Source of the DNA: Phytoseiulus persimilis
Taxonomy: Eukaryota > Arthropoda > Arachnida > Mesostigmata > Phytoseiidae
Direction: 5' to 3'
Length of the DNA stretch: 64,000 bases
NCBI GenBank assembly: GCA_037576195.1
Contig: CM075103.1
Coordinates: 32,572,723-32,636,722, forward strand
Below, one piece after another: positions 11,374-39,700 of this stretch (position 1 is its first letter; each line of letters starts with the position of its first letter). The position numbers and the translations under genes were made by a program. Below the pieces are notes generated by a model that did not search any database, was not told the DNA's origin, and saw only the letters and a list, made by a program, of their open reading frames with translations.

Positions 11374-11379
11374 AATAAA
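11374..11379 (+). other. Polyadenylation signal of gene B
   Basis: AATAAA lies about 140 bases after the gene B stop codon. Confidence 0.5.
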
Positions 11380-11544
11380 CTCAGGTATCAATCTCACTGT
11401 CGGTACACAAGCGCTTTCTTAGTCATCCTTTATAATTTCTTCAGGACTCTTTCGACTAGAAGCAACATCTGTTCCGGGTGGGAATGAGATTCTAGATTTA
11501 TTTGAGCTAGTCAGACAAGCTCTCCTCGTTAGCCGAAACTCCAG

Positions 11545-13906: not shown

Positions 13907-14077
13907 GGGGTCAGTGAGATTCTATGGCCGGAAATATCATGCACAGCACGAGATAAAATCTACCTCGTGCTCCCCGGGACGGCTTTAGGGATCCTTCTCG
14001 TCAAGGTCACAGAAAAAACGAGGACTGTGCAAGAGCCACCGGGGGCTGGTTCTGGAGCTAACCTAACTACGAGGTAG
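13907..14077 (+). pseudogene. IR-like terminal exon with a membrane segment
   Basis: A pyrimidine-rich acceptor (CTGTGCTCGCAG) opens a 171-nt frame ending at TAG. The peptide has one hydrophobic segment (KIYLVLPGTALGILLVKV) followed by charged residues (TEKTR) and a short polar tail. Its layout matches the TM3 exon of the local receptors, and its position downstream of the S2-like exon at 11545-11769 fits one divergent receptor gene. There is no strong sequence identity. Confidence 0.28.
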
Positions 14078-14904: not shown

Positions 14905-15130
14905 CAGAGATGGGCGTAATCATAATCATAATTATGACAATGATTAATAATCATAGTCAAAGTGTGATTACGAAAATAATCATACTTTGACTATGAATAT
15001 TATTCACATCTTGATTATGATTATGATTAAAAATCATAGTCAAAGTATGATTATGAATATCCTCATGATTGTGATGACTATATCCATGTATATGATGACT
15101 ATTCTTTTTATTATTGTGATTATTGTTGTT
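14905..15130. repeat. AT-rich imperfect (ATTATG)n block with inverted copies
   Basis: Repeated CATAATCATAAT / ATGATTATGATT motifs alternate in orientation, with CATAGTCAAAGTNTGATTA twice. The first part (14870-14960) is found inverted at about 23560-23660 and in the second copy of the tandem unit, so it belongs to a dispersed element rather than being only simple sequence. Confidence 0.7.
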
Positions 15131-15490
15131 TCTGGTATACTCAAGCACCCGGTGGGAGGATGACACGCACACGAGGTGCGTGCGGGACCGGGGCCCATGG
15201 ACGAGATTCCGGGATCGATCTTGACCGTACTTTTTGAAGTGAAGGGAAGTGATTCCGAGATCGATCTGACCATACTTTTCCGAGTATGGAGGAGTGATTT
15301 CGGGATCGATCTGACCATACTTTTCTGAGTATGGAGGAGTGAATCCGGAACCCATCTTTAACAGCCAGTTGGATTCTGGAGGAAGGCTAGCTCGGATCCC
15401 GGAATCTCGTCAATGGACCCGGGCCCCGCACGCACCTCGTGTGCGTATCATCCTTCCACCGGGTGCTTGAGTATACCAGAAACAACAATA
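15121..15490. repeat. Inverted repeat enclosing 45-bp minisatellite units
   Basis: About 97 bases at 15121-15220 are the reverse complement of 15391-15490 with few mismatches (shared GTGCTTGAGTATACCAGAAA). Between the arms are about three units of the 45-bp minisatellite (GGAGTGATTYCGGGATCGAT, CTGACCATACTTTTC). The right arm leads into TE1, so the structure is two head-to-head copies of the element's 5' end. Confidence 0.8.
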
Positions 15491-15650
15491 ACCACAGGTA
15501 CCACAGCGATAAGTCGCTTCCAAAATCGAGTGCGAAAAAAAAGCTTTCTTCTTGGAGTTTTCAGCGGTTAAACAGTATCTTTTACCGATGAAAACACTTG
15601 TGTGGTGTGTGTTGAAGTGATTCGGCCCGAAAAATCGACAACACAACGGT

Positions 15651-16982
15651 ATGGAAGAAGATATGAGCGAAAGTAGATTCGAAGCTGCCTGCGCCACGTG
15701 CGCTCCACGGGTGGAGGTCCTTGCGGCCGAAGCCGGGCAGTGCTGCGCTCTCGGCAGTCTAGAATCGAAACTGCTCAGTCTCGATGCCCGCTACACATTG
15801 GCTTTTCGAAGCGCAAACGAAAATTCGTTAGAGACCGCTCAACTGTCGAGTAAGCTGGACGAAGCACTGTCAACAGCCGAACAGCTCAGGTTGAGGGTCC
15901 AAGCCCTCGAAGAACAAGTCAAAACTCAACAGACGGAGCTCGAGGCCAGCAAAAAGAAACTTGCTGAGCTTTCTGTTGATGCTGCAGCCCATGGGGTGAC
16001 AACAGCAATCACAGAAATGAATCTCGATCCTTCCCTCAGTGAACGGCAGGCTCGTCTCTCATCTGAATGTATATGCATCCAGGTTGACAAACCCTGCCGG
16101 AAGCTGAGATACGCTCCCGACACTGAACTCGACCTCTACGGAGATCTTGCGGGAGATCGCGTGTTCGACGAGTTCAGACTGAAACAAAATCTGGTTGTTG
16201 CTAACGTGGTCAGCAATACATAACAGTTCCTTAGCGACTTTCCGAACCACACATTCCATATGATGGTTCACGTCGGAGCCCAGGACGTAGCCAACTGTAT
16301 GGTCAGCAGCGTACCTGTCAGCTACGACGATATCGCTGCCTCCATCATCCGCCCACTAGCGGAGTTGAAGGCGAAACACGCCAGAATACTCTCGGTAACG
16401 TGGTGCACGATGATAGAGACACCTAATGCTCATCACATAAGACAAATCAATGAAAAGATCACCTGCTCTGATTGTGTCAGGGGAAGGAGATTGGTAGAGA
16501 TTCTCGATCTTCAAATTATCTCGGACAATCCCTCATGCATCCAACAAAACGGAGCGCCCCCCTCCTACACAGATGCGGGCCTCAAAATTCTGAAAGACTG
16601 GCTCAAAGCGTCAGTCGAGCAGAAGCTTGGAATCAATCCAGAAAAGCTTCCTATGCTTGACGAACTGAGAGCCCAGTTCCTTGAGGAGAGGAGGAAACGA
16701 TTTCAGGCCGATGCGGAAAACCGCAAGACCCTTCTTAAGAGAAAGCAACTTCTGAAGAAGATGGTCGAAGATGCCAAAACAAAAACGGCGCCGTCAAATG
16801 ATGCGTCTCAAAACGTTCGTACTCCGCAGAAAAAGCCTAGAGACGGACAAAAGGACAGATCTGCACCCAAAGAACCGGGGCAGAGACAACAGCATCAAGG
16901 GCGGTCGCAGGAGCAAGCCCCGAAGGACCCCAGCAAACCTGGACCTAGTGGATACTCCGGCAAAAAACGCCACCAGCCCTAA
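15651..16982 (+). pseudogene. TE1 ORF1 (nucleic-acid-binding protein, one internal stop)
   Basis: Frame open from ATG 15651 with TAA at 16221-16223, then open again to 16982. Alignment with TE2 ORF1 shows the stop replaces a single codon, with matching sequence on both sides (DVVSSARQFC in TE2; NVVSNT-stop-QFL here). N-terminal cysteines (CATC, QCC) and a coiled coil come first. A domain with MVHVGAQDV, LSVTWCTMIE and YTDAGLKILKDWL follows, then a basic, glutamine-rich tail. It would act as the element's RNA-binding chaperone. Confidence 0.75.
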
Positions 16983-17070
16983 CAGACCGACAAGACAAGG
17001 CGTCACCCTCCTAAAAGACCTGGAGGTGCCCCGCCGATGTCCTAACAAGACCAAACAGCCAATCCAGCCC

Positions 17071-19850
17071 ATGAGGCGATGCCGCAAGCGTGGACTCCGG
17101 AGCAAAGGAGCACCTTGCGAGACTGTTGCTAATAAACTATGTTTCGTTTCTCCAAATATCAATAGTTCTAAATCTAGCATTGCCAAGTGGGCTGCGCTTG
17201 AAAAAGATGTGCTCATCGACATGAACGTAGACATAATCATGTTATGCGGAACGCGTCTTATAAATGACGAGAAAGCACCACCCATTGAGGGATACAACGT
17301 AATATCCAGCAACCGGCGAGGCCCGACGGGAAAAACTCGAATGGTGGCGTAGCTATCCTATACAGGGAAAACTATGTCGAAGACTGGAACCACAAAGGCA
17401 ATGACTTCATTGACCAAGCAACGTGGATTGGCAGACAACGATGGATATTCATATCCTTCTATATGAAACATGGAACAGTAAGGGAAAACAAGACCCTCAC
17501 CAGATCCATGAGCACACTCATCAAGCAAAAGTGCTCGCCGCTAGATAAGATTATCATAGGTGGTGACGCCAATGCGCATATCCCGTGCCTCGATGGAAAA
17601 TCAAACAGAAGAGGACAGATCTTCGAGGAGTTTTCCATTGAGAACGGACTCGCTATACTAAACCTGACAGAGCGATGCGAAGGCAAATTCACTCGAGGGG
17701 AGTCAGCGATAGACTACTTTCTTGTGAACGGAGCGGCGCTGAGTCAGATAGACTCCATGACCATCGACGAAGACAGGATCATAGCCCTGAGCGATCATAA
17801 TCTTCTGAGAATGGAATGCGCAGCCCAGCAGAGTCATGTACCAAAAATCAAGAAACGGATTCACTCCATGCGTCCGCTTCTCGCTGCGCAAACAGTTGAG
17901 AACCAACTTGAGGCGCACCCAGGTGGCCTTCCACTGGGATATGAAGACTTCAAGGAAAAGATCCTAGGAGCAATCAAAAAATCAACACGCATCCACCGAT
18001 GCGGGCACCGCACACCTATCCTATCTAGGACTCTGGACGGGCTAATCGGATACCGGAGGGAGTGTGGCCGACTCTGGAGTCAGAGGAAACGCCAACTAAA
18101 CTCTGTCGCGAGGAACGGTACCACAGAGCACCGTGAGACCGACAAACATAGCGGCGTTGGAGACCCAACGACGAACACACCACATGTGCGTTCAAGAGAA
18201 CAGAGAGGGCAAACAACACATGCGCCCTCCGAAACACTCAATGACTGCGACGTTGTAGAGGCAGAAATCCGATACCGCGCAGCACAACAGCAAGGTCGCG
18301 AGGAAGTGCAGAGAGAAACAAGGCAACGTGACCACCAAATATGCCTGGATATCCTCAAAGCACCCAAAAACAACAGAGCTAGAAGGCTGTGGCAGTTCCT
18401 GAGCCGAAGTAAATACACTGGACGCCCGTCTGGCACCAGGATCAAAGACCGAAATGGTCTCCTTGTTCCAGACGACGGCTTGACAGCTCACCTAACTGGC
18501 GTAGGAATTGAGCTGCTGGAAGCCAGCAAGACCAACGACCAGAAAGACCCGTGTCGAGGAAGCAGAGATCCCACAGGAATCGTTACAGACCCAGAAGAGG
18601 TCAAGAGAGCGATGAGTACCATCCAAGACCGCACAGGATGTGGCCTCGATGGAATCCCTGCGAAAGTCTTGAAAAATCTGCAGAATGAAGGTGTAAGGCA
18701 AATCACCGAACTATTCAACAGAATGTTTTCCGGAGCCGAAGACATACCAGAGGACTGGAAACAGGGAAGAGTGTCCCTCATAGAAAAAGGAAAATCTAAA
18801 AAGGGACACCTGAACACATACCGACCGGTCACCATCACCCCAGTCCTATACAGACTATTCACCAAGATCTTCACCTCAAAGATCCAAGAGTGGATCGAGA
18901 ATGAACAGATCCTGGGGGAGATGCAGAGCGGCTTCAAACCAGGTAGGCGTGGAGACGACAACATCTTCATACTTACTCCCGCCATAGAGATCGCCAGGGA
19001 AAACAAGCAAGGAATGGTAGCCTGCTTCCTGAACTGCTCAAACGCAAACATGAAAATCACATACGCAAACGCTGTAACCGTGATGACAACTAACACAGTG
19101 AACGAACTGGAGAAAGTCCAGCGCGAGGCAGCGCGAGGGACACTGGGTATACCAGGATGGAAGGTAGCAAACGAATACCTCTCATCGGAGCTGAGCTGGA
19201 GCTCCATCGAAGCAAGGGAAGCCAAAAGTAAGCTCAGGTATTTCGCGAGGATCCGCTCAATGCCGGACTCGAGATGGCCCAAAATGCTACTTGATGCAGT
19301 TGGGCTACAGAAAAACAAAACGAAAGCCTACCTAAGAATGGGAGTTCTCAGAACTAAATTCGATTGCGACGCACTGAAGATCGAACACGACCACGAAAAC
19401 CGAGCACTCCTTGGAGTCTACTACCGGAAGCTATCCGAAAAAGTTAAGACCGTACAGGATAGGGCCTGGGAAGACGGGATGGAAAAGAGGTCCACTCTCG
19501 AGCTGTACCGAGCCCACAAAGAGTCAAGGACCACAACCACCCACATATATGACAATAGTAGAGGATCCTCCCAGCTACCCCTAGCGAGAGCTGGAACCCT
19601 CCCAACAAAATGTCACCATACCATCTTCCAAGCTGCCCCAGACACATTCTGCGACCGATGTGGAGTTCACCCCGAAACAACCGCACACGTAATCTTCGGA
19701 TGCAATGAATTCTACTGCACCAACGAAGACCTCGCAGCTCGCCTCGGCCTAATCAGCGAGCTGAATCATTCATTGGTGAACAAGACTAAGCGACTTCTCG
19801 AAGAATGGGAACGCAACAAGAAAGGATCCGCTGAGCATGCTCGCGCCTGA
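17071..19850 (+). pseudogene. TE1 ORF2 (endonuclease/RT, catalytic core deleted)
   Basis: The N-terminal endonuclease reads PNINSSKSS, then LCGTRL where TE2 has LSETRL, so the catalytic Glu is Gly. A one-base frameshift near 17325-17340 splits the frame. The rest is open from there to 19850, with GGDANAH, AIDYFLVN and SDHNLL. In the reverse transcriptase the fingers are intact (GCGLDGIPAKVLKNL). Motif A reads LNCSNA instead of LDCSRAFD and is followed directly by the segment that in TE2 lies after motif C (ITYANAVTVM). Motifs B and C are gone, in frame. The C-terminal cysteine/histidine motif is kept (CDRCGVHPETTAHVIFGC). Confidence 0.8.
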
Positions 19851-19941
19851 ATTGAAAGGTTGATTTATAAATACAAAAAATCAGATCCAATAAACCATGA
19901 ACCATTAATAATCACAATAATAAAAATAATAGTCATCATAT

Positions 19942-21403
19942 ACAGGGTGATCATCGTAAGTCGGGAATTTTCTTACTCTCTCTTCTTCTGCTCATAAATC
20001 GGTGAAAAATTATCCGATTCTGGATTTTTTTCATTCGATAGCTGGAAGGATGGCGCATCTTTTCCTTCTCGATTTTTGTGAATCGGTAGGAAACTGAATT
20101 TCGCAAATCGGCTCAAAGATTGCCTTTTTTTTTCAAGTTTTCCAAAAAAAACAGTCCGCAAACTTCCGAAGTCGACCGATCGAATTCGTGAGTGTCAAGG
20201 TCGACGCGGGATAGGATGCTGCTCAAACGCCCGGCAACTCCAGATTTCTAGCTCAGGACCTGTGAGGAGGACGAACGATCGTTTCAACCTTGACCTCAAG
20301 ATCGACCTCCTGACAAGATCGCGTCCTCTTTGCATTTTGGCCCTCAACTCCTCGGGGAAGCCGAATTCGGGCAATTTTCCGATGGCAAAAAGCTCTAAGA
20401 TTGGTCCGGACTACCCGACCAGGGTGTTGGCGGGTCGATCCGAGAACTTTTTTTTCCCCCCGAAAATCCCGCCTCCTCAATTTTTCGAAGAAGTTGTCGG
20501 ATCGACCCGTTTACTTCTTCGTCAGGTAGTTTGGACTAATTCAAGAACTTCTCGCCATCGGAAAATTTCCCGAATTCGGCTTCCCTGAGGAGTTGAGGGC
20601 CAAAATGCAAAGAGGACGCGATCTTGTCAGGAGGTCAATCTTGAGGTCAAGGTGGAAACGATCGTTCTTCCTCCTCACAGGTCCTGAGCTAGAAATCTGG
20701 AGTTGCCGGGCGTTTGAGCAGCATCCTATCCTGCGTCGACCTTGACACTTAAGAATTCGATCGGTCGACTTCGGAAGTTTGCCGACTGTTTTTTTTGGAA
20801 AACTTGAAAAAAAAAACGAACGGTTCATCCACGGGTTGAACAGGGGCGCAGAAATGCGAACAACCTAGCGTCAAGCCGGGACACAGACAAAATTCGTCGA
20901 TAAATGAGATGGAAAGTACGGTGGATTGGTTTTGAAACACCTACAAAAAAACGAGAGAGGGGGGGAGTGTCCCAACCTTTCGAGAGGGGAAAATGCTCCA
21001 TTGAGTAAAAATATTGAGATTTCTCATCAATGGCGGTGGCATGTGTCCAAAATTTCTCGAGTGCTTCCGCCCAAAGCCCCCCTCAATTTGTTTTCGACGG
21101 TCCTATCTTCAGTGCTCCGGCGAATGACGGGCTTCCTTTTGCGCGTCGAATGCTACCCCCACGAGTCCGATCCGATAAATATTGACGTTTTTACGATAAC
21201 TTTTAGGAAGACCTCGAAAAAAAAGGAAGGGTCAATTTCAAAACCATCTCCTGACCGGGATTTTTACCGGATCTACCGAAAATGACCGCCTCGATATCCT
21301 CTATCGATCACTGTTTGATTTTTGAAAAAGTTCCAAAAATTGACGAAGTTATGGCCAAAACAAGATCGGGCTCGAAATTCCCGATTAAAAAAAGCCACCC
21401 TGT
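19942..21403. mobile_element. DNA element with ACAGGGTG termini and internal foldback
   Basis: ACAGGGTG at 19942-19949 and its complement CACCCTGT at 21396-21403 are each flanked by ATAT, which could be a target duplication or part of the inverted termini. No transposase frame is visible, so it is non-autonomous. The first 190 bases (19965-20128) recur inverted at 23395-23555, and a diverged relative lies at 53035-53560. The 3' end of this element contains the left breakpoint of the 7686-bp tandem unit, so its last 65 bases also appear at 29025-29089. Confidence 0.6.
20127..20819. repeat. Near-perfect palindrome of about 690 bp
   Basis: The left arm (20127 onward) is the reverse complement of the right arm (ending 20819), centred near 20473. 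Examples are TGTCAAGGTCGACGCGGGAT against ATCCTGCGTCGACCTTGACA, and AGTTGCCGGGCGTTTGAGCA on the right for TGCTCAAACGCCCGGCAACT on the left. Divergence rises toward the centre, which is C/T-rich. It could extrude as a hairpin of about 340 bp. Confidence 0.85.
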
Positions 21404-21454
21404 ATATGGACTGCCGTGCCCCAGGGGGTCGATCACCGACCATCGATTTCTTGG

Positions 21455-21800
21455 AGCGATTGCGGGACCAATCTGACCTTCACTTTTCAAGTCTGGAAGG
21501 GTGATTCCGGGACCGATCTGACCATTACTTTCCGAGGCCTGGAGGGTGATTCCGGGACCGATCTGACCATTACTTCCCAAGTCTGGAGAGGTGATTCCGG
21601 GACTAGACATCATTATACGTAGTACGGCGAATGAATTCTCTTATATGAATTCAAATGTTCGGCAATAGTACGGCAAATGAATTCGGTTATATTCCGGGAC
21701 CAATCTGAACATACTCTTCGGAGTCTGAATTGGTGAGTCCGGGATCGACCTGACCATACTTTTTAGACTCTGAGGAGGTGATTCCGGAGTCCATCTGACC
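21455..21800. repeat. 45-bp minisatellite block (left copy; also 29141-29486)
   Basis: Three to four clean units of GGTGATTCCGGGACCGATCT GACCATTACTTTCCRAGKCT GGAGG, then degenerate units after a short unrelated spacer. Confidence 0.8.
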
Positions 21801-22369
21801 ATAACAGCATGTACCAATCAACCGAATGAGAAGATAGATCCAGAGAAAAGTGTCTCGTGAGCTGGTAGCCGGATAATATAACGATCACAGTGGCCACATG
21901 TGTATTATGCGCTGGCGGTGAAACCGGCATTGCAACCGAGGGCGCAGGCGCGGGATAGAGATCAATAGTGAAAGAGCGATGGCATCCGGGACCAATGTAA
22001 AGCAAGAACGCGACCGGCTAGAAGAGGAAGAGCCTGCAAGAGGGAAACGAATGAAAAAAGCTCGAGAGTAGAAGAGTAGATTTGCTCGCCGACAAGTTGT
22101 GACCGTCCTCAAAACGTCCCTTTCTTCCGCTGCCCTAGCGTCCAAGGTGGACTAAGCATCCAGCCCCCGCTCCCAGTTGTGTCCGAGTGAGTTCGTCTTC
22201 TTACTCCATGAGTCGTAGCTCCTTCGTCACCCAGATCTTAAGACCTCACCTAGTGCGAGCTTAGGCAGACAGCGGAAACCTTCGTTACAGTATTGTCAGA
22301 GAACAGAGGTATAGTCACAATACCGAACGGAGCGAGAATCAGGTATCGACCGCTCTCTGATCCACCTTT

Positions 22370-22790
22370 CGGCTCTCCAGACTCGGCAAAATATTGTCAG
22401 ATTGGTCCTGGAATCAGCCCACCAGACTCAGAAAAGTATGCTCAGATTGGTCCCGGAATCACTCCTCCAGACTCGGAAAAATATGCTCAGGCTGGTGCCG
22501 GAATCACTCCTCCAGACTCAGCAAAATGTTGTCATATGCGTCCTGGAGTCAACCAACCAGACTCAGAAAAGTATGCTCAGATTGGTCCCGGAATCACTCC
22601 TCCAGACTCAGAAAAGTATGCTCAGATTGGTACCGGAACCACTCCTCCAGACTCGGAAGAAGATTGTCAGATTGGTCCCGGAATCACCCCTCCAGACTCG
22701 GAGGAATATTGTCGGATTAGTCCCAGAATCACCCGTCAACACTCGAAAAGTGAAGGTCAGATTGGTGCCGGAATCACCCCCATGTATTCC
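22370..22790. repeat. 45-bp minisatellite block, opposite orientation (also 30056-30476)
   Basis: About nine units reading CAGATTGGTCCCGGAATCAC TCCTCCAGACTCAGAAAAGT ATGCT, the reverse complement of the family at 21455. The lack of stops gives overlapping 180-, 136- and 108-residue frames that I do not consider genes. Confidence 0.85.
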
Positions 22791-22924
22791 AGGAGGAACG
22801 AGGACAAACTGACAGACGAAGCCGATCATAAGTAGTAAGGATCCTCGGGTCCGGGGTACGAAAAATGAACTTCCGTAACGGAGTGGTATGTAAATACGTT
22901 TGACGTACTCCGTACTACGGAAAA

Positions 22925-23195
22925 TGATGTCTATCCGGGACCAATCTGACCATTACTTTCCAAGTCTGGAGGGGTGATCCCGGGACCAATCTGACCTTCA
23001 CATTTCGAGGCTGGAGGGGTGATTCCGGGACCGATCTCACCATTACTTTCCCAGGTCTAAGGGGCGATTCCGGGATCAATCTGACCATTACTTCCCAAGT
23101 CTGGAGGGGTGATTCCGGGACCGATCTGACCATTACTTTCCAAGTCTGGAGGGGTGATTCCGGGACCGATCTGAACATTACTTCACCTACCATCA
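22925..23195. repeat. 45-bp minisatellite block (also 30611-30881)
   Basis: About six units in the same orientation as 21455 (GGGGTGATTCCGGGACCGAT). The block is bounded on the left by the palindromic ACGTACTCCGTACTACGG sequence. Confidence 0.85.
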
Positions 23196-23394
23196 CTTCA
23201 TCGTCATTGACCTATGACAAGACACCAAGATTCACCTTATGAAATTCAACGTGAATTCAAATTTCCCTCGCTCCGTGAAAAATCTTAAAGGCCTCCCGCT
23301 GCGATTTTTTCGTTCCCATTTTTTCGTTCCACTCCCAGTTACACCCCAGTAAACACGCCCGAAGAAAAGCGCATTTCTGCGCTAAAAGAAGGCT

Positions 23395-23660
23395 ATCTTT
23401 GAGCCGATTTGCGAAATTCAGTTTCCTACCGATTCACAAAAATAGAAGAGAAAATGATGCGCCAGCTATCGAATGAAAAAAAAAGTTCAGAATCGGATAA
23501 TTTTTCACCGACTTATGAGCGAAAGAAGAGAGAGTAAGAAAACCCCCGACTTATTTTCGTAATCACACTTTGACTATGATTATCAATCATAGTCATAATC
23601 CTGATTATGATTACACCCATCTCTATCACGGAAATGAAATTACATGAGACATAGATGATG
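23395..23660. repeat. Inverted fragments of the foldback element and AT-rich repeat (also 31081-31346)
   Basis: 23395-23555 is the inverted counterpart of 19965-20128 (shared GCCGATTTGCGAAATTCAGT). It is followed by the inverted counterpart of 14870-14960 (AATCACACTTTGACTATGAT). This is the remains of composite insertions. Confidence 0.75.
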
Positions 23661-23971
23661 TTTCATGCACGGATCATTTCAAATACACCGCTTAGATATT
23701 CGAGCATGCGTTTTCCGGTACCCACGGTTCGCCATGGGAAACACAAACAATATCGCTACATCGAGGACATCTGGGGATGTGAATCTGGGCGGGATAATTT
23801 TTCGTAATCCGGGATTACGGAAAAACATTTCCGTAAGCCGTTATACGGAAAACCATGTCTACACCACATCCGGGGATCTTCGCTAAGAGCCCGCCGTCGA
23901 ATAAACGACTCCGTCAATAGGAGTCGCTTGTTTCAGAATCGATACGGACTTCGACCGTAGCCGATTCTCAC

Positions 23972-25271
23972 GTTCTGCGCCACCCCGCTCCGTTTAGAGC
24001 GGAAAAGTCGCGGTTCAGCGAGGCTTTGAGCTGTGTCTCCCACGAGATCATAACCAGTTCCACCCCAATGTTGTTAAATCGCCAAAAGCATTGGTTGCTT
24101 TGAGACGTGGAATCCCCTGAGAAATAGTTGTGGAACGATGTCATTTCCTGGATGCATTCGGGACTCGGAGTCGTCAGGGACAGCAGCCTGGAATCAATCA
24201 TTCGAAAGCCTTTCAAGCGGGCGATGATGGACCGAAACGGAGGAGACTCACCTCTACGTGAGTTCATATCGCTCTGCAATCACAAGCCTCGATTGATCGG
24301 ATAGTATCGGCACTCGTCTGCAAAGCCCGAACCTCGCAACTTACTGTCGATCGGAAACGCTTTTCGGTGTCATCCATCCAATCCTCGGCGACAATGGATG
24401 TGATGGTATGAACTGTGTGTTGCTCAAGAAGGAATGAAGTCTTAATTTGGTTATTGTGGTCTCGCCTGGCTCCCGCTATAAGCTTTTCATGGAGGTTCTC
24501 ACACGAAATCCCCCGTTCAACGAGGGCTTCTTATCGCTGATGGATAATGTGGCTCTATTCCGATGAGAGCTATCAGATGACCACAGCGCAGGGGAAGCAG
24601 AACCGAGAGAAGTGATAAGTTCGGGATGGATCCCTCGTTGTGATCGACGATGGGTTCTGTGGAAGAGGATTGTGGCAAATGGTAGTACAAATACGTTGCG
24701 ATTCATCCTCTCCGGAAGGCAGCGTCTGTACTTGCGAATGGATGCCGAGCTGAGATGTTCTCAAACCCCGGTCGTGGAAGCCATCATTGATGGCTCGAGG
24801 ATACCCTGAGCAGAGTTGGTTCACAAGATATAGCGGGATAATTGTTGGTAACATATATGAATCGAAATCTGCGGGGCGATCCGTTGCGCTTTCCTCAGAA
24901 CTTCGCGTTGCAGCGTTGAAAAAGTTCTTGCTCCGACCTTACAAGTAGTCGCTGAGCCGTTACAACGAGGACACTGCCGTAATGAAGGGATTCCGAATTT
25001 CTCACGGAACTGCCGGTGGAGCGGAATTCGGGCGGCTTCCTTGAAACCGGCTTGTACAACGACAGCAAGGTCGAACAAGGCGCTATCTATGGGCTCGTTG
25101 CACCGCCTCCGACAATCTGATGTCAGATCAGAAGGTACTATCGGATGGAATGAAGAACCCGTGTTTCGGCAGATAGCGGATAAATATCCATCCGATGACA
25201 ATTCACCGTCTAACTATCGCGAATGCGAGAATCATGAAGTTGCCCGTGGATCGAAAATTGGAGTTCTCACT
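23972..25271 (-). CDS. Unidentified split gene, left copy (partial)
   Basis: Minus-strand exons that keep frame across good splice sites: 25116-24943, 24868-24805, 24656-24503 and 24273-23972, with donors GTAAGG, GTATCC, GTGAGA and GTGAGA. A further open stretch ends at 25271 with a GTGAGA donor (peptide FLVSEKYLGSERA), but its link to the next exon is unresolved. Readable segments include SALFDLAVVVQAGFKEAARI, CPRCNGSATTYFDSYM and FNNIGVELVMISWETQLKAS. I do not recognise the family. The first segments loosely recall the amino-terminal domain of a glutamate-type receptor, which is only a guess. Downstream of 23972 there are only repeats, so the gene appears cut short by insertion. Start, stop and function are unknown. 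Confidence 0.35.
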
Positions 25272-25279
25272 GCCCTCTC

Positions 25280-26817
25280 GGAGCCTAGATATTTTTCACT
25301 GACAAGGAATCGATGTCCTGGATGCCGAGAAACCTCCCCTAGAAATTTCATGATCTTCGTTTTCGGAATGATTACAGAGGGATAGAAAGACGTTATTTCG
25401 GTGCCATATGTCGAGAGCCAAGAGTTGAGGATGGCAGATATCACCTGATGGGACCACAGCAGATACCCATCGGAATCCAAGTCTTCATCGCCCGAAGTCG
25501 GTTCCGAAGTATATTGAAGCCATGATCCACGGGAAACATGGGATATTGTATGAGACATCGGCCTCGACTGTCAAAGTGCTGAAAACGTTATTTTCTCTCA
25601 CATGATAGCACATCGGAGGCTATGGTCGGCTTTGTCGCTCTCGAGTTTCGTCCACATCGTCTGGTTTCCTAACATTTCCCGAATCTATTATACATCCCTA
25701 CAATCCTACCGGCGTTTCTGACTTCATAGCATTCAACTCACGTAACATAACTTCAACCGTCTCCTGATAAGTCTGGAAGGGGAAGCTCGAGAGCCATTCT
25801 CTCTTCTATGCAAACCTGTGGTCTCAGACCAGCGAGCGCATGCGCGCACCGAATCACGATCTTCCGTACGCAACATTGAAGAGCTCATCTTGAAAACCCT
25901 CACACCGCTTGACCCGCGGGAAAGTTTCTCCATAAGCCCGCTGGTAGTTCTGTCAGAACGCAACTGGGTTGAATAGTTAACCTGGTCGTTTCGGGGAGCT
26001 ACAGAAATTCGAAGCAATGGATGCCATAGCAAGCTCTCGTGGTTTAATACATAGTTTAGAGCGTGGAAGCTTCCGCAATCAAATTCCTCATTCGATTTCT
26101 AGCGTGATTCCCAGAGAAGTTATCGTGAATCTCCTGCACATATGATCGCACCAACCGACGGTTTTTTCACGATCTCTCAATATTGTAGTCTTCTCATGAG
26201 TACAAGAATAATCAGATTCCGAGGTCTCCCTTGCGTATTGTGGCTTCGTCACATCCATATACATGAATATGGAATACATAGGTATCATGCTGTTACATCA
26301 TCTGAGATAAGTTGGAAGGTGGAAGTGGCTGATGGAAGTTGGGGAGTCCGGGGCATCAGACTGGATGTCCGCCCCGGGCATCCTCGAAAGTCGGTACGCT
26401 ACTGTTGCACGGCCACAGTTCACTATTTGTTCCGTTTGTTCCGACTTGGATTCGACCCTGGATGGATTTCGGCACACCAGTGTGCCATGGAAGGGGCAAG
26501 AAATCCTCTGGAAACAGCGGGAATGGCTGCATCGACAATTCAACGACTGGAGTAGAATTCAGTACAAAAGCTAGCGCAGGGTCGAGCCTGATCTTGAATC
26601 AGATGAAACCTGACAGGTTCCGAGGCTTCTGACTGTCGCACAGTGCGTACGTAGCTATTTAAGCGGCCCCTGATCTCCCCATGCATTCCAGCTCAGTGGG
26701 AACTCGAGGGAAATATAGTCGTATCCCTATCAGCGCTCGTCGAATCAGAGCTGATTCTGAAAGCCTGAGGCCAATGAGGAAAACACCCACTGATCTCGAG
26801 AAGAGATCACCCGATTT
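25280..26817. other. Part of the tandem unit with no supported gene (also 32966-34503)
   Basis: Frames of 60-137 residues overlap on both strands without paired splice sites. The part next to 26818 may be downstream flank of the gene C terminal exons. Confidence 0.3.
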
Positions 26818-26823
26818 TTTATT
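26818..26823 (-). other. Polyadenylation signal after duplicated gene C exons (also 34504-34509)
   Basis: AATAAA on the minus strand about 310 bases past the stop codon of the gene C terminal exon, present in both copies of the unit. Confidence 0.4.
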
Positions 26824-27130
26824 TCTCAGCCACTCGAAGATCTCCGAGTCGGAGTAGTCATCCTGGGAAGGAGGGTCAAATTGATGGGGAGCATAACCTG
26901 TTGCGATATTCCTGGACTATTATCGAAGTTGTTCTGCGCGGTACCTGTCGATGTCCTCGACAAGTCCTCGACGGACACGCTCCTCGACATTGCATACCGG
27001 CCGGAGCTCCCTCCGAAATTCACGGAACGGTCTCCATTGTATCAGATTTTCCGACTTCATCCTCGATTCAATCAGCCTTCTCGAATATCGGCCCTCGATC
27101 ATGACGACCTGTATCTGCACAAACTCGTTG

Positions 27131-27942
27131 TTACAATCGATGTACCGTGATCTCCCTCTTCCTTCGTGCGATTTTCACCTCATCGAAGCAAAGAATCAAC
27201 AGGAAACATGTCGTGGATACGCCGATTCCAGAGAAGTAAATCATGAAGTGCGCATGGAAATCTCTCAAATGGAGGACGCGTCCTCTGTGCAGCCTCTGAA
27301 CCTCTGGTCCGTCGCCCCCGAGAGCACTTTTCAGATATTTCTCGAAAAGTCCCGATGCCACGATGTGTCCTAAGCTGCGAGAGAATTCACGAGATCTCAG
27401 TGCTGTGCTCCACAAGGAGAGTGCGGATGAAGAGAACTTGACGTTCAGCCAGCAACTCGAGGTTATACCCATATCTCCGCACTGCATAGATATCCGTAAT
27501 GTCGTTGTGAAGTGCTGATTTACATTTTGTTGATTTTTGGCTTCAAGTAGCATTTCTTCTGGAAAGCGAACGCGGTCCCAACGATCGTGAAGAAATCGTC
27601 CGCTGCTTGTAGTTCATTGGCGACATGAAATTCCAATGCGCCCCTTATCAGAGAGGTTTTGCTGTCGACATAGGCATATCTGAAACAAAGCACCGGGACA
27701 TGCATGGGGAATCCATCTTCGTTGAGTCATCTCCGTGAATCAGCAGGTCATTTCAGTTAGATTCGTGCCGAGTGGAGTAAGATCACCACAAGAACCTCTC
27801 GAATTAATAAGAATGGCTCCAACGATATTTACTTCTCTGTGGCTGATTTCCTGATACCTTGCTCCAAGTCTCCAACAACCAGCTCTGGTTTCCGCTCAAT
27901 GAGATCTTTAAGCAACGCGAAAGCCTTGCTATCTAGCGGCTC
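27131..27942 (-). pseudogene. Orphan second set of gene C terminal exons
   Basis: Exons 27942-27833 (110 nt), 27679-27524 (156 nt) and 27374-27131 (244 nt) duplicate gene C exons 9-11, including S2 and TM3 (AHFMIYFSGIGVSTTCFLLI). They have intact splice sites and stop codon but no upstream exons of their own. They lie downstream of gene C's own terminal exons on the same strand, so they could in principle serve as alternative 3' exons, though the protein would be the same. More likely they are unused. Confidence 0.8.
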
Positions 27943-29024
27943 CTGAAACATCCAAGCACGGCACTGAGCGAAATGACTTCCGGTGTGCATGTCGAGGGGT
28001 CAGGGCCAAGTACCGTCACGCTTTCGTTCCCGAAAGTGGTAGAAGTTCTTCGAACGCTATGGTAGCATCTTGGAGTGGAATTTTCACCCGTTCGATCCTC
28101 CGATAGAGGGCTCTCGTACTTATGCGGAGCGGTTTCCCAGCTGATCGGGAGCGAAATTATTGGGGTCGAGCTTGGAAAGGGCGTCTGCGTGCATCACGAT
28201 GCGTCGAAGCATGATTGGCCTTTGTGCATCGATCGAAAAGATCCACCGTGAATTGAAGTGGCCCCATTGGTTCCCGCCTCGCAGTAGCGTAGCGAGGCAG
28301 GAGGCGGTCCGCTCCGGGCATCAGGTCGCTAGGGGCATCAGAATGCCTCCGGAATTTCTCCGGAATCCTCAGAATGGGGGCGAAGTCCGATCGTTGGATC
28401 TGATTTTTCACCCTCTCGACGAACCATCATCTATTTTTCGTCCTCCTTCCTGTTCGACGTTCAGTCTATTTCGTTTTTGTCTCGGATCAGAGATCGAGCC
28501 AACGAAGTTGACAAACCTCGCTGTCCTAACTATCGAGTTGTTCATCACGGATGAGTTCAACTTCGAGGAGTCAATAGAAGATTCGCAGCTCCAGAAGCGA
28601 GGCAAATAACCCTCCAAGAATAGGTAATCCAGTTTCTCATATAATATTCTGGTTGCCCGCATTTGGGTCAGCTCGCGCAAGTTGTCTCCATTCCTCTGAA
28701 GATCTCCATTCCAGATGATCATATTTTATATTTGAGGTTGTCAAAAAACACAGTTAGTACGAATCAAACGCATTCATCTCCTCGGACGTTAAAAAAAAAG
28801 AGGACGGGGCATCAAGGCCGCCCCGGGCATCATGAAGGCTCGCTATGCCACTGGTTCCTCGTTCAAAACCATGACTGGTGCCTGCAGAGCTTCGTCACCT
28901 CTCAAACAAGCAGATCATCCACAGCTGAGAACTCGCGAGACACAGCATACATTCATGCCGCAGCAGACTCGCGATCGTATAGGAACACATTGTGTGAATC
29001 GCGGTTCGACATGAAAGGTAGAAA

Positions 29025-32000
29025 ATTGACGAAGTTATGGCCAAAACAAGATCGGGCTCGAAATTCCCGATTAAAAAAAGCCACCCTGTATATGGACTGC
29101 CGTGCCCCAGGGGGTCGATCACCGACCATCGATTTCTTGGAGCGATTGCGGGACCAATCTGACCTTCACTTTTCAAGTCTGGAAGGGTGATTCCGGGACC
29201 GATCTGACCATTACTTTCCGAGGCCTGGAGGGTGATTCCGGGACCGATCTGACCATTACTTCCCAAGTCTGGAGAGGTGATTCCGGGACTAGACATCATT
29301 ATACGTAGTACGGCGAATGAATTCTCTTATATGAATTCAAATGTTCGGCAATAGTACGGCAAATGAATTCGGTTATATTCCGGGACCAATCTGAACATAC
29401 TCTTCGGAGTCTGAATTGGTGAGTCCGGGATCGACCTGACCATACTTTTTAGACTCTGAGGAGGTGATTCCGGAGTCCATCTGACCATAACAGCATGTAC
29501 CAATCAACCGAATGAGAAGATAGATCCAGAGAAAAGTGTCTCGTGAGCTGGTAGCCGGATAATATAACGATCACAGTGGCCACATGTGTATTATGCGCTG
29601 GCGGTGAAACCGGCATTGCAACCGAGGGCGCAGGCGCGGGATAGAGATCAATAGTGAAAGAGCGATGGCATCCGGGACCAATGTAAAGCAAGAACGCGAC
29701 CGGCTAGAAGAGGAAGAGCCTGCAAGAGGGAAACGAATGAAAAAAGCTCGAGAGTAGAAGAGTAGATTTGCTCGCCGACAAGTTGTGACCGTCCTCAAAA
29801 CGTCCCTTTCTTCCGCTGCCCTAGCGTCCAAGGTGGACTAAGCATCCAGCCCCCGCTCCCAGTTGTGTCCGAGTGAGTTCGTCTTCTTACTCCATGAGTC
29901 GTAGCTCCTTCGTCACCCAGATCTTAAGACCTCACCTAGTGCGAGCTTAGGCAGACAGCGGAAACCTTCGTTACAGTATTGTCAGAGAACAGAGGTATAG
30001 TCACAATACCGAACGGAGCGAGAATCAGGTATCGACCGCTCTCTGATCCACCTTTCGGCTCTCCAGACTCGGCAAAATATTGTCAGATTGGTCCTGGAAT
30101 CAGCCCACCAGACTCAGAAAAGTATGCTCAGATTGGTCCCGGAATCACTCCTCCAGACTCGGAAAAATATGCTCAGGCTGGTGCCGGAATCACTCCTCCA
30201 GACTCAGCAAAATGTTGTCATATGCGTCCTGGAGTCAACCAACCAGACTCAGAAAAGTATGCTCAGATTGGTCCCGGAATCACTCCTCCAGACTCAGAAA
30301 AGTATGCTCAGATTGGTACCGGAACCACTCCTCCAGACTCGGAAGAAGATTGTCAGATTGGTCCCGGAATCACCCCTCCAGACTCGGAGGAATATTGTCG
30401 GATTAGTCCCAGAATCACCCGTCAACACTCGAAAAGTGAAGGTCAGATTGGTGCCGGAATCACCCCCATGTATTCCAGGAGGAACGAGGACAAACTGACA
30501 GACGAAGCCGATCATAAGTAGTAAGGATCCTCGGGTCCGGGGTACGAAAAATGAACTTCCGTAACGGAGTGGTATGTAAATACGTTTGACGTACTCCGTA
30601 CTACGGAAAATGATGTCTATCCGGGACCAATCTGACCATTACTTTCCAAGTCTGGAGGGGTGATCCCGGGACCAATCTGACCTTCACATTTCGAGGCTGG
30701 AGGGGTGATTCCGGGACCGATCTCACCATTACTTTCCCAGGTCTAAGGGGCGATTCCGGGATCAATCTGACCATTACTTCCCAAGTCTGGAGGGGTGATT
30801 CCGGGACCGATCTGACCATTACTTTCCAAGTCTGGAGGGGTGATTCCGGGACCGATCTGAACATTACTTCACCTACCATCACTTCATCGTCATTGACCTA
30901 TGACAAGACACCAAGATTCACCTTATGAAATTCAACGTGAATTCAAATTTCCCTCGCTCCGTGAAAAATCTTAAAGGCCTCCCGCTGCGATTTTTTCGTT
31001 CCCATTTTTTCGTTCCACTCCCAGTTACACCCCAGTAAACACGCCCGAAGAAAAGCGCATTTCTGCGCTAAAAGAAGGCTATCTTTGAGCCGATTTGCGA
31101 AATTCAGTTTCCTACCGATTCACAAAAATAGAAGAGAAAATGATGCGCCAGCTATCGAATGAAAAAAAAAGTTCAGAATCGGATAATTTTTCACTGACTT
31201 ATGAGCGAAAGAAGAGAGAGTAAGAAAACCCCCGACTTATTTTCGTAATCACACTTTGACTATGATTATCAATCATAGTCATAATCCTGATTATGATTAC
31301 ACCCATCTCTATCACGGAAATGAAATTACATGAGACATAGATGATGTTTCATGCACGGATCATTTCAAATACACCGCTTAGATATTCGAGCATGCGTTTT
31401 CCGGTACCCACGGTTCGCCATGGGAAACACAAACAATATCGCTACATCGAGGACATCTGGGGATGTGAATCTGGGCGGGATAATTTTTCGTAATCCGGGA
31501 TTACGGAAAAACATTTCCGTAAGCCGTTATACGGAAAACCATGTCTACACCACATCCGGGGATCTTCGCTAAGAGCCCGCCGTCGAATAAACGACTCCGT
31601 CAATAGGAGTCGCTTGTTTCAGAATCGATACGGACTTCGACCGTAGCCGATTCTCACGTTCTGCGCCACCCCGCTCCGTTTAGAGCGGAAAAGTCGCGGT
31701 TCAGCGAGGCTTTGAGCTGTGTCTCCCACGAGATCATAACCAGTTCCACCCCAATGTTGTTAAATCGCCAAAAGCATTGGTTGCTTTGAGACGTGGAATC
31801 CCCTGAGAAATAGTTGTGGAACGATGTCATTTCCTGGATGCATTCGGGACTCGGAGTCGTCAGGGACAGCAGCCTGGAATCAATCATTCGAAAGCCTTTC
31901 AAGCGGGCGATGATGGACCGAAACGGAGGAGACTCACCTCTACGTGAGTTCATATCGCTCTGCAATCACAAGCCTCGATTGATCGGATAGTATCGGCACT

Positions 32001-35000
32001 CGTCTGCAAAGCCCGAACCTCGCAACTTACTGTCGATCGGAAACGCTTTTCGGTGTCATCCATCCAATCCTCGGCGACAATGGATGTGATGGTATGAACT
32101 GTGTGTTGCTCAAGAAGGAATGAAGTCTTAATTTGGTTATTGTGGTCTCGCCTGGCTCCCGCTATAAGCTTTTCATGGAGGTTCTCACACGAAATCCCCC
32201 GTTCAACGAGGGCTTCTTATCGCTGATGGATAATGTGGCTCTATTCCGATGAGAGCTATCAGATGACCACAGCGCAGGGGAAGCAGAACCGAGAGAAGTG
32301 ATAAGTTCGGGATGGATCCCTCGTTGTGATCGACGATGGGTTCTGTGGAAGAGGATTGTGGCAAATGGTAGTACAAATACGTTGCGATTCATCCTCTCCG
32401 GAAGGCAGCGTCTGTACTTGCGAATGGATGCCGAGCTGAGATGTTCTCAAACCCCGGTCGTGGAAGCCATCATTGATGGCTCGAGGATACCCTGAGCAGA
32501 GTTGGTTCACAAGATATAGCGGGATAATTGTTGGTAACATATATGAATCGAAATCTGCGGGGCGATCCGTTGCGCTTTCCTCAGAACTTCGCGTTGCAGC
32601 GTTGAAAAAGTTCTTGCTCCGACCTTACAAGTAGTCGCTGAGCCGTTACAACGAGGACACTGCCGTAATGAAGGGATTCCGAATTTCTCACGGAACTGCC
32701 GGTGGAGCGGAATTCGGGCGGCTTCCTTGAAACCGGCTTGTACAACGACAGCAAGGTCGAACAAGGCGCTATCTATGGGCTCGTTGCACCGCCTCCGACA
32801 ATCTGATGTCAGATCAGAAGGTACTATCGGATGGAATGAAGAACCCGTGTTTCGGCAGATAGCGGATAAATATCCATCCGATGACAATTCACCGTCTAAC
32901 TATCGCGAATGCGAGAATCATGAAGTTGCCCGTGGATCGAAAATTGGAGTTCTCACTGCCCTCTCGGAGCCTAGATATTTTTCACTGACAAGGAATCGAT
33001 GTCCTGGATGCCGAGAAACCTCCCCTAGAAATTTCATGATCTTCGTTTTCGGAATGATTACAGAGGGATAGAAAGACGTTATTTCGGTGCCATATGTCGA
33101 GAGCCAAGAGTTGAGGATGGCAGATATCACCTGATGGGACCACAGCAGATACCCATCGGAATCCAAGTCTTCATCGCCCGAAGTCGGTTCCGAAGTATAT
33201 TGAAGCCATGATCCACGGGAAACATGGGATATTGTATGAGACATCGGCCTCGACTGTCAAAGTGCTGAAAACGTTATTTTCTCTCACATGATAGCACATC
33301 GGAGGCTATGGTCGGCTTTGTCGCTCTCGAGTTTCGTCCACATCGTCTGGTTTCCTAACATTTCCCGAATCTATTATACATCCCTACAATCCTACCGGCG
33401 TTTCTGACTTCATAGCATTCAACTCACGTAACATAACTTCAACCGTCTCCTGATAAGTCTGGAAGGGGAAGCTCGAGAGCCATTCTCTCTTCTATGCAAA
33501 CCTGTGGTCTCAGACCAGCGAGCGCATGCGCGCACCGAATCACGATCTTCCGTACGCAACATTGAAGAGCTCATCTTGAAAACCCTCACACCGCTTGACC
33601 CGCGGGAAAGTTTCTCCATAAGCCCGCTGGTAGTTCTGTCAGAACGCAACTGGGTTGAATAGTTAACCTGGTCGTTTCGGGGAGCTACAGAAATTCGAAG
33701 CAATGGATGCCATAGCAAGCTCTCGTGGTTTAATACATAGTTTAGAGCGTGGAAGCTTCCGCAATCAAATTCCTCATTCGATTTCTAGCGTGATTCCCAG
33801 AGAAGTTATCGTGAATCTCCTGCACATATGATCGCACCAACCGACGGTTTTTTCACGATCTCTCAATATTGTAGTCTTCTCATGAGTACAAGAATAATCA
33901 GATTCCGAGGTCTCCCTTGCGTATTGTGGCTTCGTCACATCCATATACATGAATATGGAATACATAGGTATCATGCTGTTACATCATCTGAGATAAGTTG
34001 GAAGGTGGAAGTGGCTGATGGAAGTTGGGGAGTCCGGGGCATCAGACTGGATGTCCGCCCCGGGCATCCTCGAAAGTCGGTACGCTACTGTTGCACGGCC
34101 ACAGTTCACTATTTGTTCCGTTTGTTCCGACTTGGATTCGACCCTGGATGGATTTCGGCACACCAGTGTGCCATGGAAGGGGCAAGAAATCCTCTGGAAA
34201 CAGCGGGAATGGCTGCATCGACAATTCAACGACTGGAGTAGAATTCAGTACAAAAGCTAGCGCAGGGTCGAGCCTGATCTTGAATCAGATGAAACCTGAC
34301 AGGTTCCGAGGCTTCTGACTGTCGCACAGTGCGTACGTAGCTATTTAAGCGGCCCCTGATCTCCCCATGCATTCCAGCTCAGTGGGAACTCGAGGGAAAT
34401 ATAGTCGTATCCCTATCAGCGCTCGTCGAATCAGAGCTGATTCTGAAAGCCTGAGGCCAATGAGGAAAACACCCACTGATCTCGAGAAGAGATCACCCGA
34501 TTTTTTATTTCTCAGCCACTCGAAGATCTCCGAGTCGGAGTAGTCATCCTGGGAAGGAGGGTCAAATTGATGGGGAGCATAACCTGTTGCGATATTCCTG
34601 GACTATTATCGAAGTTGTTCTGCGCGGTACCTGTCGATGTCCTCGACAAGTCCTCGACGGACACGCTCCTCGACATTGCATACCGGCCGGAGCTCCCTCC
34701 GAAATTCACGGAACGGTCTCCATTGTATCAGATTTTCCGACTTCATCCTCGATTCAATCAGCCTTCTCGAATATCGGCCCTCGATCATGACGACCTGTAT
34801 CTGCACAAACTCGTTGTTACAATCGATGTACCGTGATCTCCCTCTTCCTTCGTGCGATTTTCACCTCATCGAAGCAAAGAATCAACAGGAAACATGTCGT
34901 GGATACGCCGATTCCAGAGAAGTAAATCATGAAGTGCGCATGGAAATCTCTCAAATGGAGGACGCGTCCTCTGTGCAGCCTCTGAACCTCTGGTCCGTCG

Positions 35001-36710
35001 CCCCCGAGAGCACTTTTCAGATATTTCTCGAAAAGTCCCGATGCCACGATGTGTCCTAAGCTGCGAGAGAATTCACGAGATCTCAGTGCTGTGCTCCACA
35101 AGGAGAGTGCGGATGAAGAGAACTTGACGTTCAGCCAGCAACTCGAGGTTATACCCATATCTCCGCACTGCATAGATATCCGTAATGTCGTTGTGAAGTG
35201 CTGATTTACATTTTGTTGATTTTTGGCTTCAAGTAGCATTTCTTCTGGAAAGCGAACGCGGTCCCAACGATCGTGAAGAAATCGTCCGCTGCTTGTAGTT
35301 CATTGGCGACATGAAATTCCAATGCGCCCCTTATCAGAGAGGTTTTGCTGTCGACATAGGCATATCTGAAACAAAGCACCGGGACATGCATGGGGAATCC
35401 ATCTTCGTTGAGTCATCTCCGTGAATCAGCAGGTCATTTCAGTTAGATTCGTGCCGAGTGGAGTAAGATCACCACAAGAACCTCTCGAATTAATAAGAAT
35501 GGCTCCAACGATATTTACTTCTCTGTGGCTGATTTCCTGATACCTTGCTCCAAGTCTCCAACAACCAGCTCTGGTTTCCGCTCAATGAGATCTTTAAGCA
35601 ACGCGAAAGCCTTGCTATCTAGCGGCTCCTGAAACATCCAAGCACGGCACTGAGCGAAATGACTTCCGGTGTGCATGTCGAGGGGTCAGGGCCAAGTACC
35701 GTCACGCTTTCGTTCCCGAAAGTGGTAGAAGTTCTTCGAACGCTATGGTAGCATCTTGGAGTGGAATTTTCACCCGTTCGATCCTCCGATAGAGGGCTCT
35801 CGTACTTATGCGGAGCGGTTTCCCAGCTGATCGGGAGCGAAATTATTGGGGTCGAGCTTGGAAAGGGCGTCTGCGTGCATCACGATGCGTCGAAGCATGA
35901 TTGGCCTTTGTGCATCGATCGAAAAGATCCACCGTGAATTGAAGTGGCCCCATTGGTTCCCGCCTCGCAGTAGCGTAGCGAGGCAGGAGGCGGTCCGCTC
36001 CGGGCATCAGGTCGCTAGGGGCATCAGAATGCCTCCGGAATTTCTCCGGAATCCTCAGAATGGGGGCGAAGTCCGATCGTTGGATCTGATTTTTCACCCT
36101 CTCGACGAACCATCATCTATTTTTCGTCCTCCTTCCTGTTCGACGTTCAGTCTATTTCGTTTTTGTCTCGGATCAGAGATCGAGCCAACGAAGTTGACAA
36201 ACCTCGCTGTCCTAACTATCGAGTTGTTCATCACGGATGAGTTCAACTTCGAGGAGTCAATAGAAGATTCGCAGCTCCAGAAGCGAGGCAAATAACCCTC
36301 CAAGAATAGGTAATCCAGTTTCTCATATAATATTCTGGTTGCCCGCATTTGGGTCAGCTCGCGCAAGTTGTCTCCATTCCTCTGAAGATCTCCATTCCAG
36401 ATGATCATATTTTATATTTGAGGTTGTCAAAAAACACAGTTAGTACGAATCAAACGCATTCATCTCCTCGGACGTTAAAAAAAAAGAGGACGGGGCATCA
36501 AGGCCGCCCCGGGCATCATGAAGGCTCGCTATGCCACTGGTTCCTCGTTCAAAACCATGACTGGTGCCTGCAGAGCTTCGTCACCTCTCAAACAAGCAGA
36601 TCATCCACAGCTGAGAACTCGCGAGACACAGCATACATTCATGCCGCAGCAGACTCGCGATCGTATAGGAACACATTGTGTGAATCGCGGTTCGACATGA
36701 AAGGTAGAAA
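29025..36710. repeat. Tandem unit, right copy (7686 bp)
   Basis: Head-to-tail second copy. Identity is lost after GGTAGAAA at 36710. I noticed one substitution against the left copy, C at 23509 versus T at 31195; other differences may have escaped an eye comparison. Such similarity means a very recent duplication or a doubled segment in the assembly. Confidence 0.95.
31658..32957 (-). CDS. Unidentified split gene, right copy (partial)
   Basis: Same exons as the left copy at +7686: 32802-32629, 32554-32491, 32342-32189 and 31959-31658, plus the open stretch ending at 32957. I saw no difference between the copies in the exons. Confidence 0.33.
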
Positions 36711-39700
36711 GTTGTTCAGATAGAGTCTCATGCGGCGTGCACGGAGGAGGTCCAACGGCGCTCTTTGGAGACCTGATGAACCACTCACGTCTATCATAGC
36801 CAGCCAGGCACTATTTTCCAGGGTGCCGCCAGTTATCGTTCCGCTCTCGAGGGCCGCTTCCAATGCAACGACGCTGTCCAGCCCTTCTTCGTAGCTCCGA
36901 ACGTTCATGAAAGCAAGCAGACATCCCGAAAACGAATTCGCAACCAAGAAACCGTAGATCACCCAATTAAGCAAAAGAATACGGTAACTGGCTGTCCTGT
37001 ATTGCCGGTAGCCGTCGTGAGCTGTTGAGGGTAGAAAAAATTGGAGGTTGTCCAAACAGATAATGAAGTTCACCACAACGTAGCTGAGACCCTGGGACCG
37101 AATCGATGTCGGGCGGCGCTTTCGATTCTCTTACTTTGCCTCAGAAAGAGTGCCAGTATCAGTAGATAGTCTGGAGCTTGTTTCTTTCTCGAGGAGTCAG
37201 GATTCAGTGCTGTGACGAGATGAACGGTCGCACTTGCTATCACTATGGAAAGACCTATGAGACACCAGCCCTGGAATTGCACGACAGTTATTTGTTCAGA
37301 AGGTACCCGATGGCTTTGGGGTCCAATGGGAACGCATCGCATGACGAATTACTCGCGGGAGGAAGCGGGAATGAAGAGCGGTGAAACTCGACTCTTGTTC
37401 CGAACAGGGGCTGCGACACCTACACGACGAATGTTCCAAGGGGGATTTTCACTCGGAATCGGGAGAAAAAATCGTGTTTTCTGTTTGTGGCATGGGTAGA
37501 TGCAGGACAGGCTCCTCTGGCATCCAGAACTAACTGCACCTCGATATCTGTTCTAGTTTTCCAGATATCCACCGTTCATTTCAAATTATCTGGACATTCT
37601 ATTAGAGGTCATGTGAAGCTGACAAGCGGGGCTTTGATGTCCACTTCATCAGGCAAGGAAACCGTTCTTGAACCGCCGAAACAAAAAAAGCATCCACGTT
37701 TTCGAAATCACCCGCGTCAACGAACTCCTGTTGCTAGTGGAATGCGTTCATTCTTTGAGCCAACAGTGTACAGTGTACACCGCGCGCGCAGGGTCGTTCT
37801 CTATCGTGAAAAAATGGGCCACGGTTGTTCGTCCAGGGACTCCAATCCCGGGAGCGAATCAGTTCTCAGCTCAACACCGCGGCCAACGAAACGGCCCGAT
37901 AGCCAAGCGCGAGATCTTCACTGCTCTCAATCTGAAACAGGGAAGAACTTCGATCGATGGCTCCAACAGTCGGATTCAAAAGTTTTCTCCGGCTCGGATT
38001 CCGAAAGTTCCAGTTCATTTGCGAAAGAGATTCAATGAGTTCATTTTGAAACATGATTGAAGACTCCACCTGGTTTCGGGGCTGAAACCAGGAGGCGTCG
38101 AAATAGGCCAGACAGGGCGGAAAGCTCTGATCAAATCAGGTCCACCCTTTCCCTGATTTCCACTCTTGGGAGTCATCGATATCAATGCGGTTTGTTTTAA
38201 TTTGTTGCTGTTGTACGTGGCTCTTCGTTGAACTAGAAACAGAGGAATCGCAGTTGTTCTCTTGGTCCTCATCTTCCTCATCATTCTCGGAGATTTGATC
38301 CAGCTCGGAGCCCAAGAGTCTCAGTTCATCTCCGACAGAATATCATTTCCTCCATTTCAAGCTGGTTTCTCTAGCTGGTTCTGGTGCCGAGAAATGGTGT
38401 CAAAACCAGGAGGCATCGAAAAAGGCCCAACGGGGCAGAAAACTTTGCTCAAATCAGGTCCACCGTTTCCCTGATTTGTCCTCGGTTCCGATTCGTTGCC
38501 GATGAATGTGGCTCTCAGATGAACTAGATTCATAGGAATCGGAGATGTTCTCTTGGAGTACATCACTAGCGAACGAATTTTTTTTTTCCTCGCATCGTCC
38601 TCATCAACTCCAAAAACTTTCCCCAGCTGGGATCCCGATAGTTCTAGTTCATCTCCGAGAGAATTTGACCGCCTCAATTTTAAAGGAAGAATGAAGTGTC
38701 TAGCGGGTTCTTGCGCCGAGGAAGCGGGTGGAAACCACAAGACATGGCGAGCCCTCACTCCTACGGTCTTCAACTTCGAGGCTCGTTTTGTCGGAATCGT
38801 ATTCCGGCCCATTTCCGATCATCATTTCCCTGATATCTACACGCCAGGTGCAGCGATTTTGATGCTCTCTTCTTCAATGTAGCTCATGCACGTGGGAGTA
38901 AAGTGAACTAGAATGATAGCAAACGCGAGCGGGGTCTCGGAACAATTCGTCATCGACCAAAAGTTGATTTTTTCAGTAAGTTAATCTCGAGTTTTCTTAT
39001 GGTACTTGGGACCGGATTTCTATCGATCTAGTTCAATATGAGGGTCACGAAATTATCTACTATTCCAAGAAAGAAACAGCTCTCTGCCTCATCCCGGCGA
39101 GGAACAACTAGGGCAAAACCGCGAAATCCAGATTCTCTTCTCGCAAGAGGAGAAAACGGAGTTACGTCTCAATTTTTTTTTCGTGAGTAGCTTGGAGCCT
39201 CCTCCACTCGGAGGTCACTCACGTTAGATTCTAGCTGAAACAGGAGAACAGATACAGACCGCGGGAGCAGGTATTCTTGTTGAGTGAACATCCCCCTTAG
39301 AGGAGCAGGTTTGCAGACCGGTGAGAAGAAGCGGAGTTGGGGCGAATGAGGTTCAAATCGTTCCACTCACCAAAGTGTCGAACGCCCATGCGAAAAGATT
39401 CAGGGAGCTCTTCTCATGCGGTCCGCGCGCGATGAAAGATATCACTTCGATGTAGAATATGTTGGAAAAGTCGGTTATAGCGCTCCGCGGGTAGGTGCAC
39501 GACAGTTCCGTGAACGCTATATCTGCCTCCTTCGGGTAACGGGAGAACTCAGATCAGTGGAGGGAAGAGATCGTCCTGGGATGTTTGGCAGCCCCACGAG
39601 GAAAATGACAGGCGAATCTCAACGTCGAGATTCCAAAATGAACTGACCTTCGCCCAGACGTCTGCGATCATGCCGACCCAATGTTTCGTGGTGGAGTTGA

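Follow-up and report, generated by a model that had tools for sequence, protein, structure and literature searches.

Two near-identical 7.7-kb copies that join a receptor intron to a foldback arm in Phytoseiulus persimilis: a probable, very recent tandem duplication

When two neighbouring copies of several kilobases are almost letter-perfect, it has to be asked whether the animal carries both, or whether the assembly wrote one of them twice. The question was raised by a stretch of 64,000 nucleotides of Phytoseiulus persimilis DNA (the window), for which a first-pass annotation had claimed a 7.7-kb head-to-tail duplication at an offset of 7686 with one substitution, C23509/T31195. Self-comparison of the window confirmed this claim. 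Copy 1 (21339–29024) and copy 2 (29025–36710) were adjacent, lay head to tail and measured 7,686 bp each, with a single mismatch (C23509 versus T31195) and zero indels. The offset of 7,686 was kept from 21336 through 29024. Repeated 40-base words numbered 7,595 at this offset and 95 at the runner-up offset in the window, so the identity over the 7,686-bp unit is far above chance. Each unit holds 30 homopolymers of at least five bases, yet no indel separated the copies, and the four minisatellite arrays inside the unit were fully identical. The identity extended right up to the breakpoint at either end, with no diverged margin. We infer that the sequenced animal or strain carries a real tandem duplication of very recent date, at a probability of roughly 0.68.

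The interior of the unit (23500–29024) matched full-length at two places only in the 181-Mb genome, and these were the two copies. The remaining 49 of the 51 listed matches belonged to two short dispersed repeats (about 25737–26407 and 28275–28858). The best 40 of 760 candidates were scored in this search; the counts are thus lower bounds and short relatives may be absent from the list, while any extra copy that was long and nearly identical should have ranked top. The 125 bases preceding the 29024/29025 junction were present at two genome locations, and the 401 bases spanning the right breakpoint had a single full-length occurrence, 135 of them being found a second time in copy 1. A dispersed segmental duplication was rejected, as the genome searches gave no third copy. 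Searches with the interior, right-flank and pre-junction sequences also found no contig with the one-unit arrangement elsewhere.

Inside the unit, 163 bp (24937–25099) were 90% identical in DNA to C2 at 33.70 Mb. This relative was found via a protein search and had been missed by the interior DNA search. As the likeness of this open frame to its relative amounts to 163 bp of 90% identical DNA, the frame is not clearly a gene. A second gene within the unit was rejected, because the eight unit or junction frames among the ten given to Pfam had no match; the query covered part of the unit's open frames, and short exons could let a gene escape it. In the surroundings, the 40 kb left of the window held no direct repeat of at least 500 bases except one 723-base pair (73% alike), which extends into the window. 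Two 20-kb stretches, from C1 and C2, held no direct repeats at E 1e-10, a sample too small for a rate. The C1 stretch contains one isolated N.

The left breakpoint was examined by comparison with relatives of the elements around it. Position 21336 falls within a solo arm (21116–21405) of a dispersed foldback, or inverted-repeat, element, which confirms the earlier placement of this breakpoint in a foldback element. All five fetched foldback relatives (L022–L026) had both arms in inverted order; at this locus one arm was present and a second was not found. The arm stands in a composite transposon with 45-bp minisatellites (19951–23553) and inverted ends at 19957–20131 and 23384–23553. The left breakpoint cuts this transposon, and copy 2 repeats the part to the right of the cut. 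The transposon is therefore continuous over 21338, through the left flank and copy 1, and truncated in copy 2.

Six transposon relatives (L003–L008) were fetched with about 1.5 kb on each side of the match, and were 92.5–96.2% alike over the longest match; the best of them, L003, reached 98% over 1,138 bases in a separate search. All six matched window 20807–21120 plus a stretch from 21402 on, with the right-hand match of L008 starting at about 21503. Between the two matched stretches, each of the six carried a 455-bp segment. The segment taken from L007 was 93.6–97.8% identical to the other five relatives. It was absent at window 21120–21402, where the solo foldback arm stands instead, and its sole window match was a weak one at 3384–3526. 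One relative of the six (L006) matched the leftmost part of the transposon (19951–20553), which makes the outer limits of the element approximate. Within the transposon, 20125–20815 forms a 691-bp palindrome that is 88% like its own reverse complement. Other repeats were seen in the window as well. A long 45-bp minisatellite at 45153–47286, with about 38 units followed by about 8 inverse ones at 46934–47286, is foldback-like and similar in kind to the arrays of the composite transposon. At 3953–4694, a 39-bp unit is repeated in tandem about 19 times. In an 853-residue open frame (17289–19850, + strand), an endonuclease match exceeded the cut-off and one to reverse transcriptase fell just short of it, which points to a LINE-type retroelement.

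The right breakpoint had been placed in a receptor intron, and a homology-based gene model supports this placement. The longest open splice combination tried ran on the − strand through 37348–37135, 37021–36789, 35649–35519, 35365–35210 and 35060–34817 in one frame; the exons are predicted and their boundaries approximate. The first of these (37135–37348) was judged by eye to cover the M1 region and the second (36789–37021) the M3 region; both are present once, and the 5' end of the gene may lie beyond the model. The right breakpoint, 36710, would lie in the intron between exons 2 and 3, 79 bp past exon 2. The last three exons (34817–35649, − strand) belong to copy 2 and are predicted to be in frame with the upstream exons. 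An identical set of three stands orphaned in copy 1 (27131–27963, − strand), where the upstream exons are missing. The five model exons are united only via the right flank and copy 2. The predicted translation matched the ligand-gated channel family PF00060 with an E-value of 1.1e-6 (29.0 bits; curated cut-off 30.8). Its best PDB match was a delta-2 glutamate receptor, which was weak (E 0.01), and 13 of the 16 PDB rows up to E 1 were glutamate receptors, the other three being a tRNA ligase.

A search with one receptor exon gave 12 matches, and separate searches matched further exons of the gene. Of the 12, eight, including the gene's own place, were on C3 at 32.51–32.61 Mb and four elsewhere. 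The seven other rows of the C3 cluster were on the + strand, opposite to the duplicated gene (− strand). Further ionotropic-receptor-like sequence of this cluster (C3 32.51–32.61 Mb) lies at window 1–607 and 9662–11124 (+ strand).

The anatomy of the two breakpoints also gives the direction of the event. The transposon reads on only over the left breakpoint and the receptor gene only over the right one; the join at 29024/29025, which connects the receptor intron to the foldback arm (29005–29044), is therefore the new one. A 30-base pattern across it was found once in the 181-Mb genome. The three junction contexts agree with a single direct duplication in which the orientation is kept and one novel junction is formed. 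The join has no inserted bases and three shared bases, AAA, which occur at 21336–21338, 29022–29024 and 36708–36710. Where 3–4 bases of A microhomology had been claimed, the three stand and the fourth does not. By chance, at least three shared bases occurred in 5.3% of 200,000 random position pairs in the window (P 0.053), so AAA alone is weak evidence. It is compatible with microhomology-mediated repair or template switching and is no proof of either.

Homology of a longer kind was absent. When the 500 bp flanking each breakpoint on both sides were compared, the best match was an 11-base word (E 0.34). The flanks thus have no usable homology, which disfavours recombination between repeats, and non-allelic homologous recombination was rejected because it would need long direct homology between the breakpoints. 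The duplication had also been called repeat-associated. This description is half right: a repeat arm holds one breakpoint, but the other is in DNA found nowhere else, the flanks are unlike, and the repeat was not a recombination substrate. A one-sided breakpoint in a repeat can be a coincidence. It is very improbable that the foldback arm caused the break, through a hairpin or cruciform cut at the stem, and that the three duplicated exons make up a spare 3' cassette, as a first step of exon shuffling in the receptor family.

If the tandem duplication is real, a break or replication error would have joined the receptor intron (36710) to the interior of the foldback arm (21339). These points would have lain 7.7 kb apart before the event, and at most three bases of homology would have been used. 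The probable route is either end-joining, with sister chromatids or homologues as partners, or template switching in replication. Such an event would leave a complete receptor 3' region, made of the right flank and copy 2, a continuous composite transposon, made of the left flank and copy 1, and in addition an orphan trio of 3' receptor exons with a truncated transposon.

The single substitution was used to estimate the age. C23509 to T31195 is a CpG-to-TpG transition in copy 2. The two other repeat copies that could be aligned here (window 19957–20045 and L006) both have C at this site, so C is the older state. With mutation rates of 1e-8 to 2.8e-9, one difference corresponds to about 6,500 to 23,000 generations, with 95% limits of about 165 to 129,000 generations; limits as wide as these make only the word 'recent' safe. 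The same lone difference would also suit an older duplication whose copies were kept alike through gene conversion, for which tandem copies are good partners. Conversion is, however, expected to leave diverged margins, and here the identity reaches the exact breakpoints at both ends. Together with the four unchanged minisatellite arrays, this favours recency over homogenisation, and we hold long-term conversion to be highly improbable. The C/T site could otherwise mark units of an array that is longer than two in the animal and was collapsed to two in the assembly. Nothing in the sequence requires extra units, and a collapsed array is extremely improbable.

An assembly artefact is the more serious competitor to a real tandem duplication, though we regard it as unlikely. 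One unit would have been written twice, whether from two haplotypes (heterotype), from reads of a single haplotype (homotype) or because of a chimeric read. The nearly perfect identity of the copies speaks for this. Two haplotypes of an inbred stock could likewise differ at one site in 7.7 kb, and zero indels can also mean a common consensus behind both copies. According to the excerpt of PMC9516828, between 0.3 and 15.9% of the assemblies under study were affected by false duplications, whose marks are a gap separating the copies, discordant pairs, low depth and k-mers of one-copy frequency. Here, neither the window nor the 104 kb joined around it contained an N or a gap between the copies, a mark that is common in false duplications and not obligatory. 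The continuous join, the clean junction between two features, each of which continues a single time, and the failure to find another contig with one unit all weigh against an artefact, and none of them is decisive. The first-pass annotation had offered a very recent, repeat-associated duplication or an assembly error. It had read the anatomy correctly, and we keep both of its options, with the link to a repeat holding for one breakpoint of two.

The real duplication that we prefer would most likely be silent or neutral. In the gene model, the right flank and copy 2 keep one complete receptor 3' region in frame. Copy 1 has no upstream exons and the receptor reads the exons of copy 2, so the predicted effect is silent. 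As the exons of both copies are identical, a transcript splicing to the copy 1 set instead would specify the same residues. The event belongs to an ordinary class, namely a known type of tandem duplication with microhomology, or possibly an assembly error, and the general picture of how duplications originate is unchanged. If real, the locus presents a tandem duplication nearly at its birth, with base-exact breakpoints and with related receptor genes clustered nearby. It also calls for caution in gene counts, where an annotation pipeline may list an extra partial receptor.

Several known systems can be compared with this locus. The Foldback elements of Drosophila have inverted arms with short tandem repeats and are companions of rearrangements. 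In contrast to these, the arm here has no counterpart at the other breakpoint, and so it did not serve as a homology substrate. The false heterotype and homotype duplications in the excerpt of PMC9516828 are alike in that near-identical copies of gene parts lie next to each other; here the join has no gap or N. The segregating tandem duplications of Drosophila yakuba and D. simulans, as excerpted from PMC4503668 and PMC5460883, are likewise recent, head-to-tail and often capture parts of genes. In the excerpt of PMC5460883, 1004 duplications captured 1306 genes or gene fragments, and 66 were whole-gene duplications. Compared with the cases in these excerpts, the P. persimilis fragment, known from one assembly, comprises a 3' end that lacks the upstream exons, and is neither a chimera nor a 5' end. 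The junction itself can be set beside the Drosophila copy-number breakpoints in the excerpt of PMC4056370, where 35% were blunt and homologous recombination was negligible. Although the median sizes there are tens of bases, far under 7.7 kb, and the comparison concerns a single event in another genome, the P. persimilis junction has the simple end and the at least two shared bases of the microhomology class, which comprises 41% of the 644 breakpoints in that excerpt.
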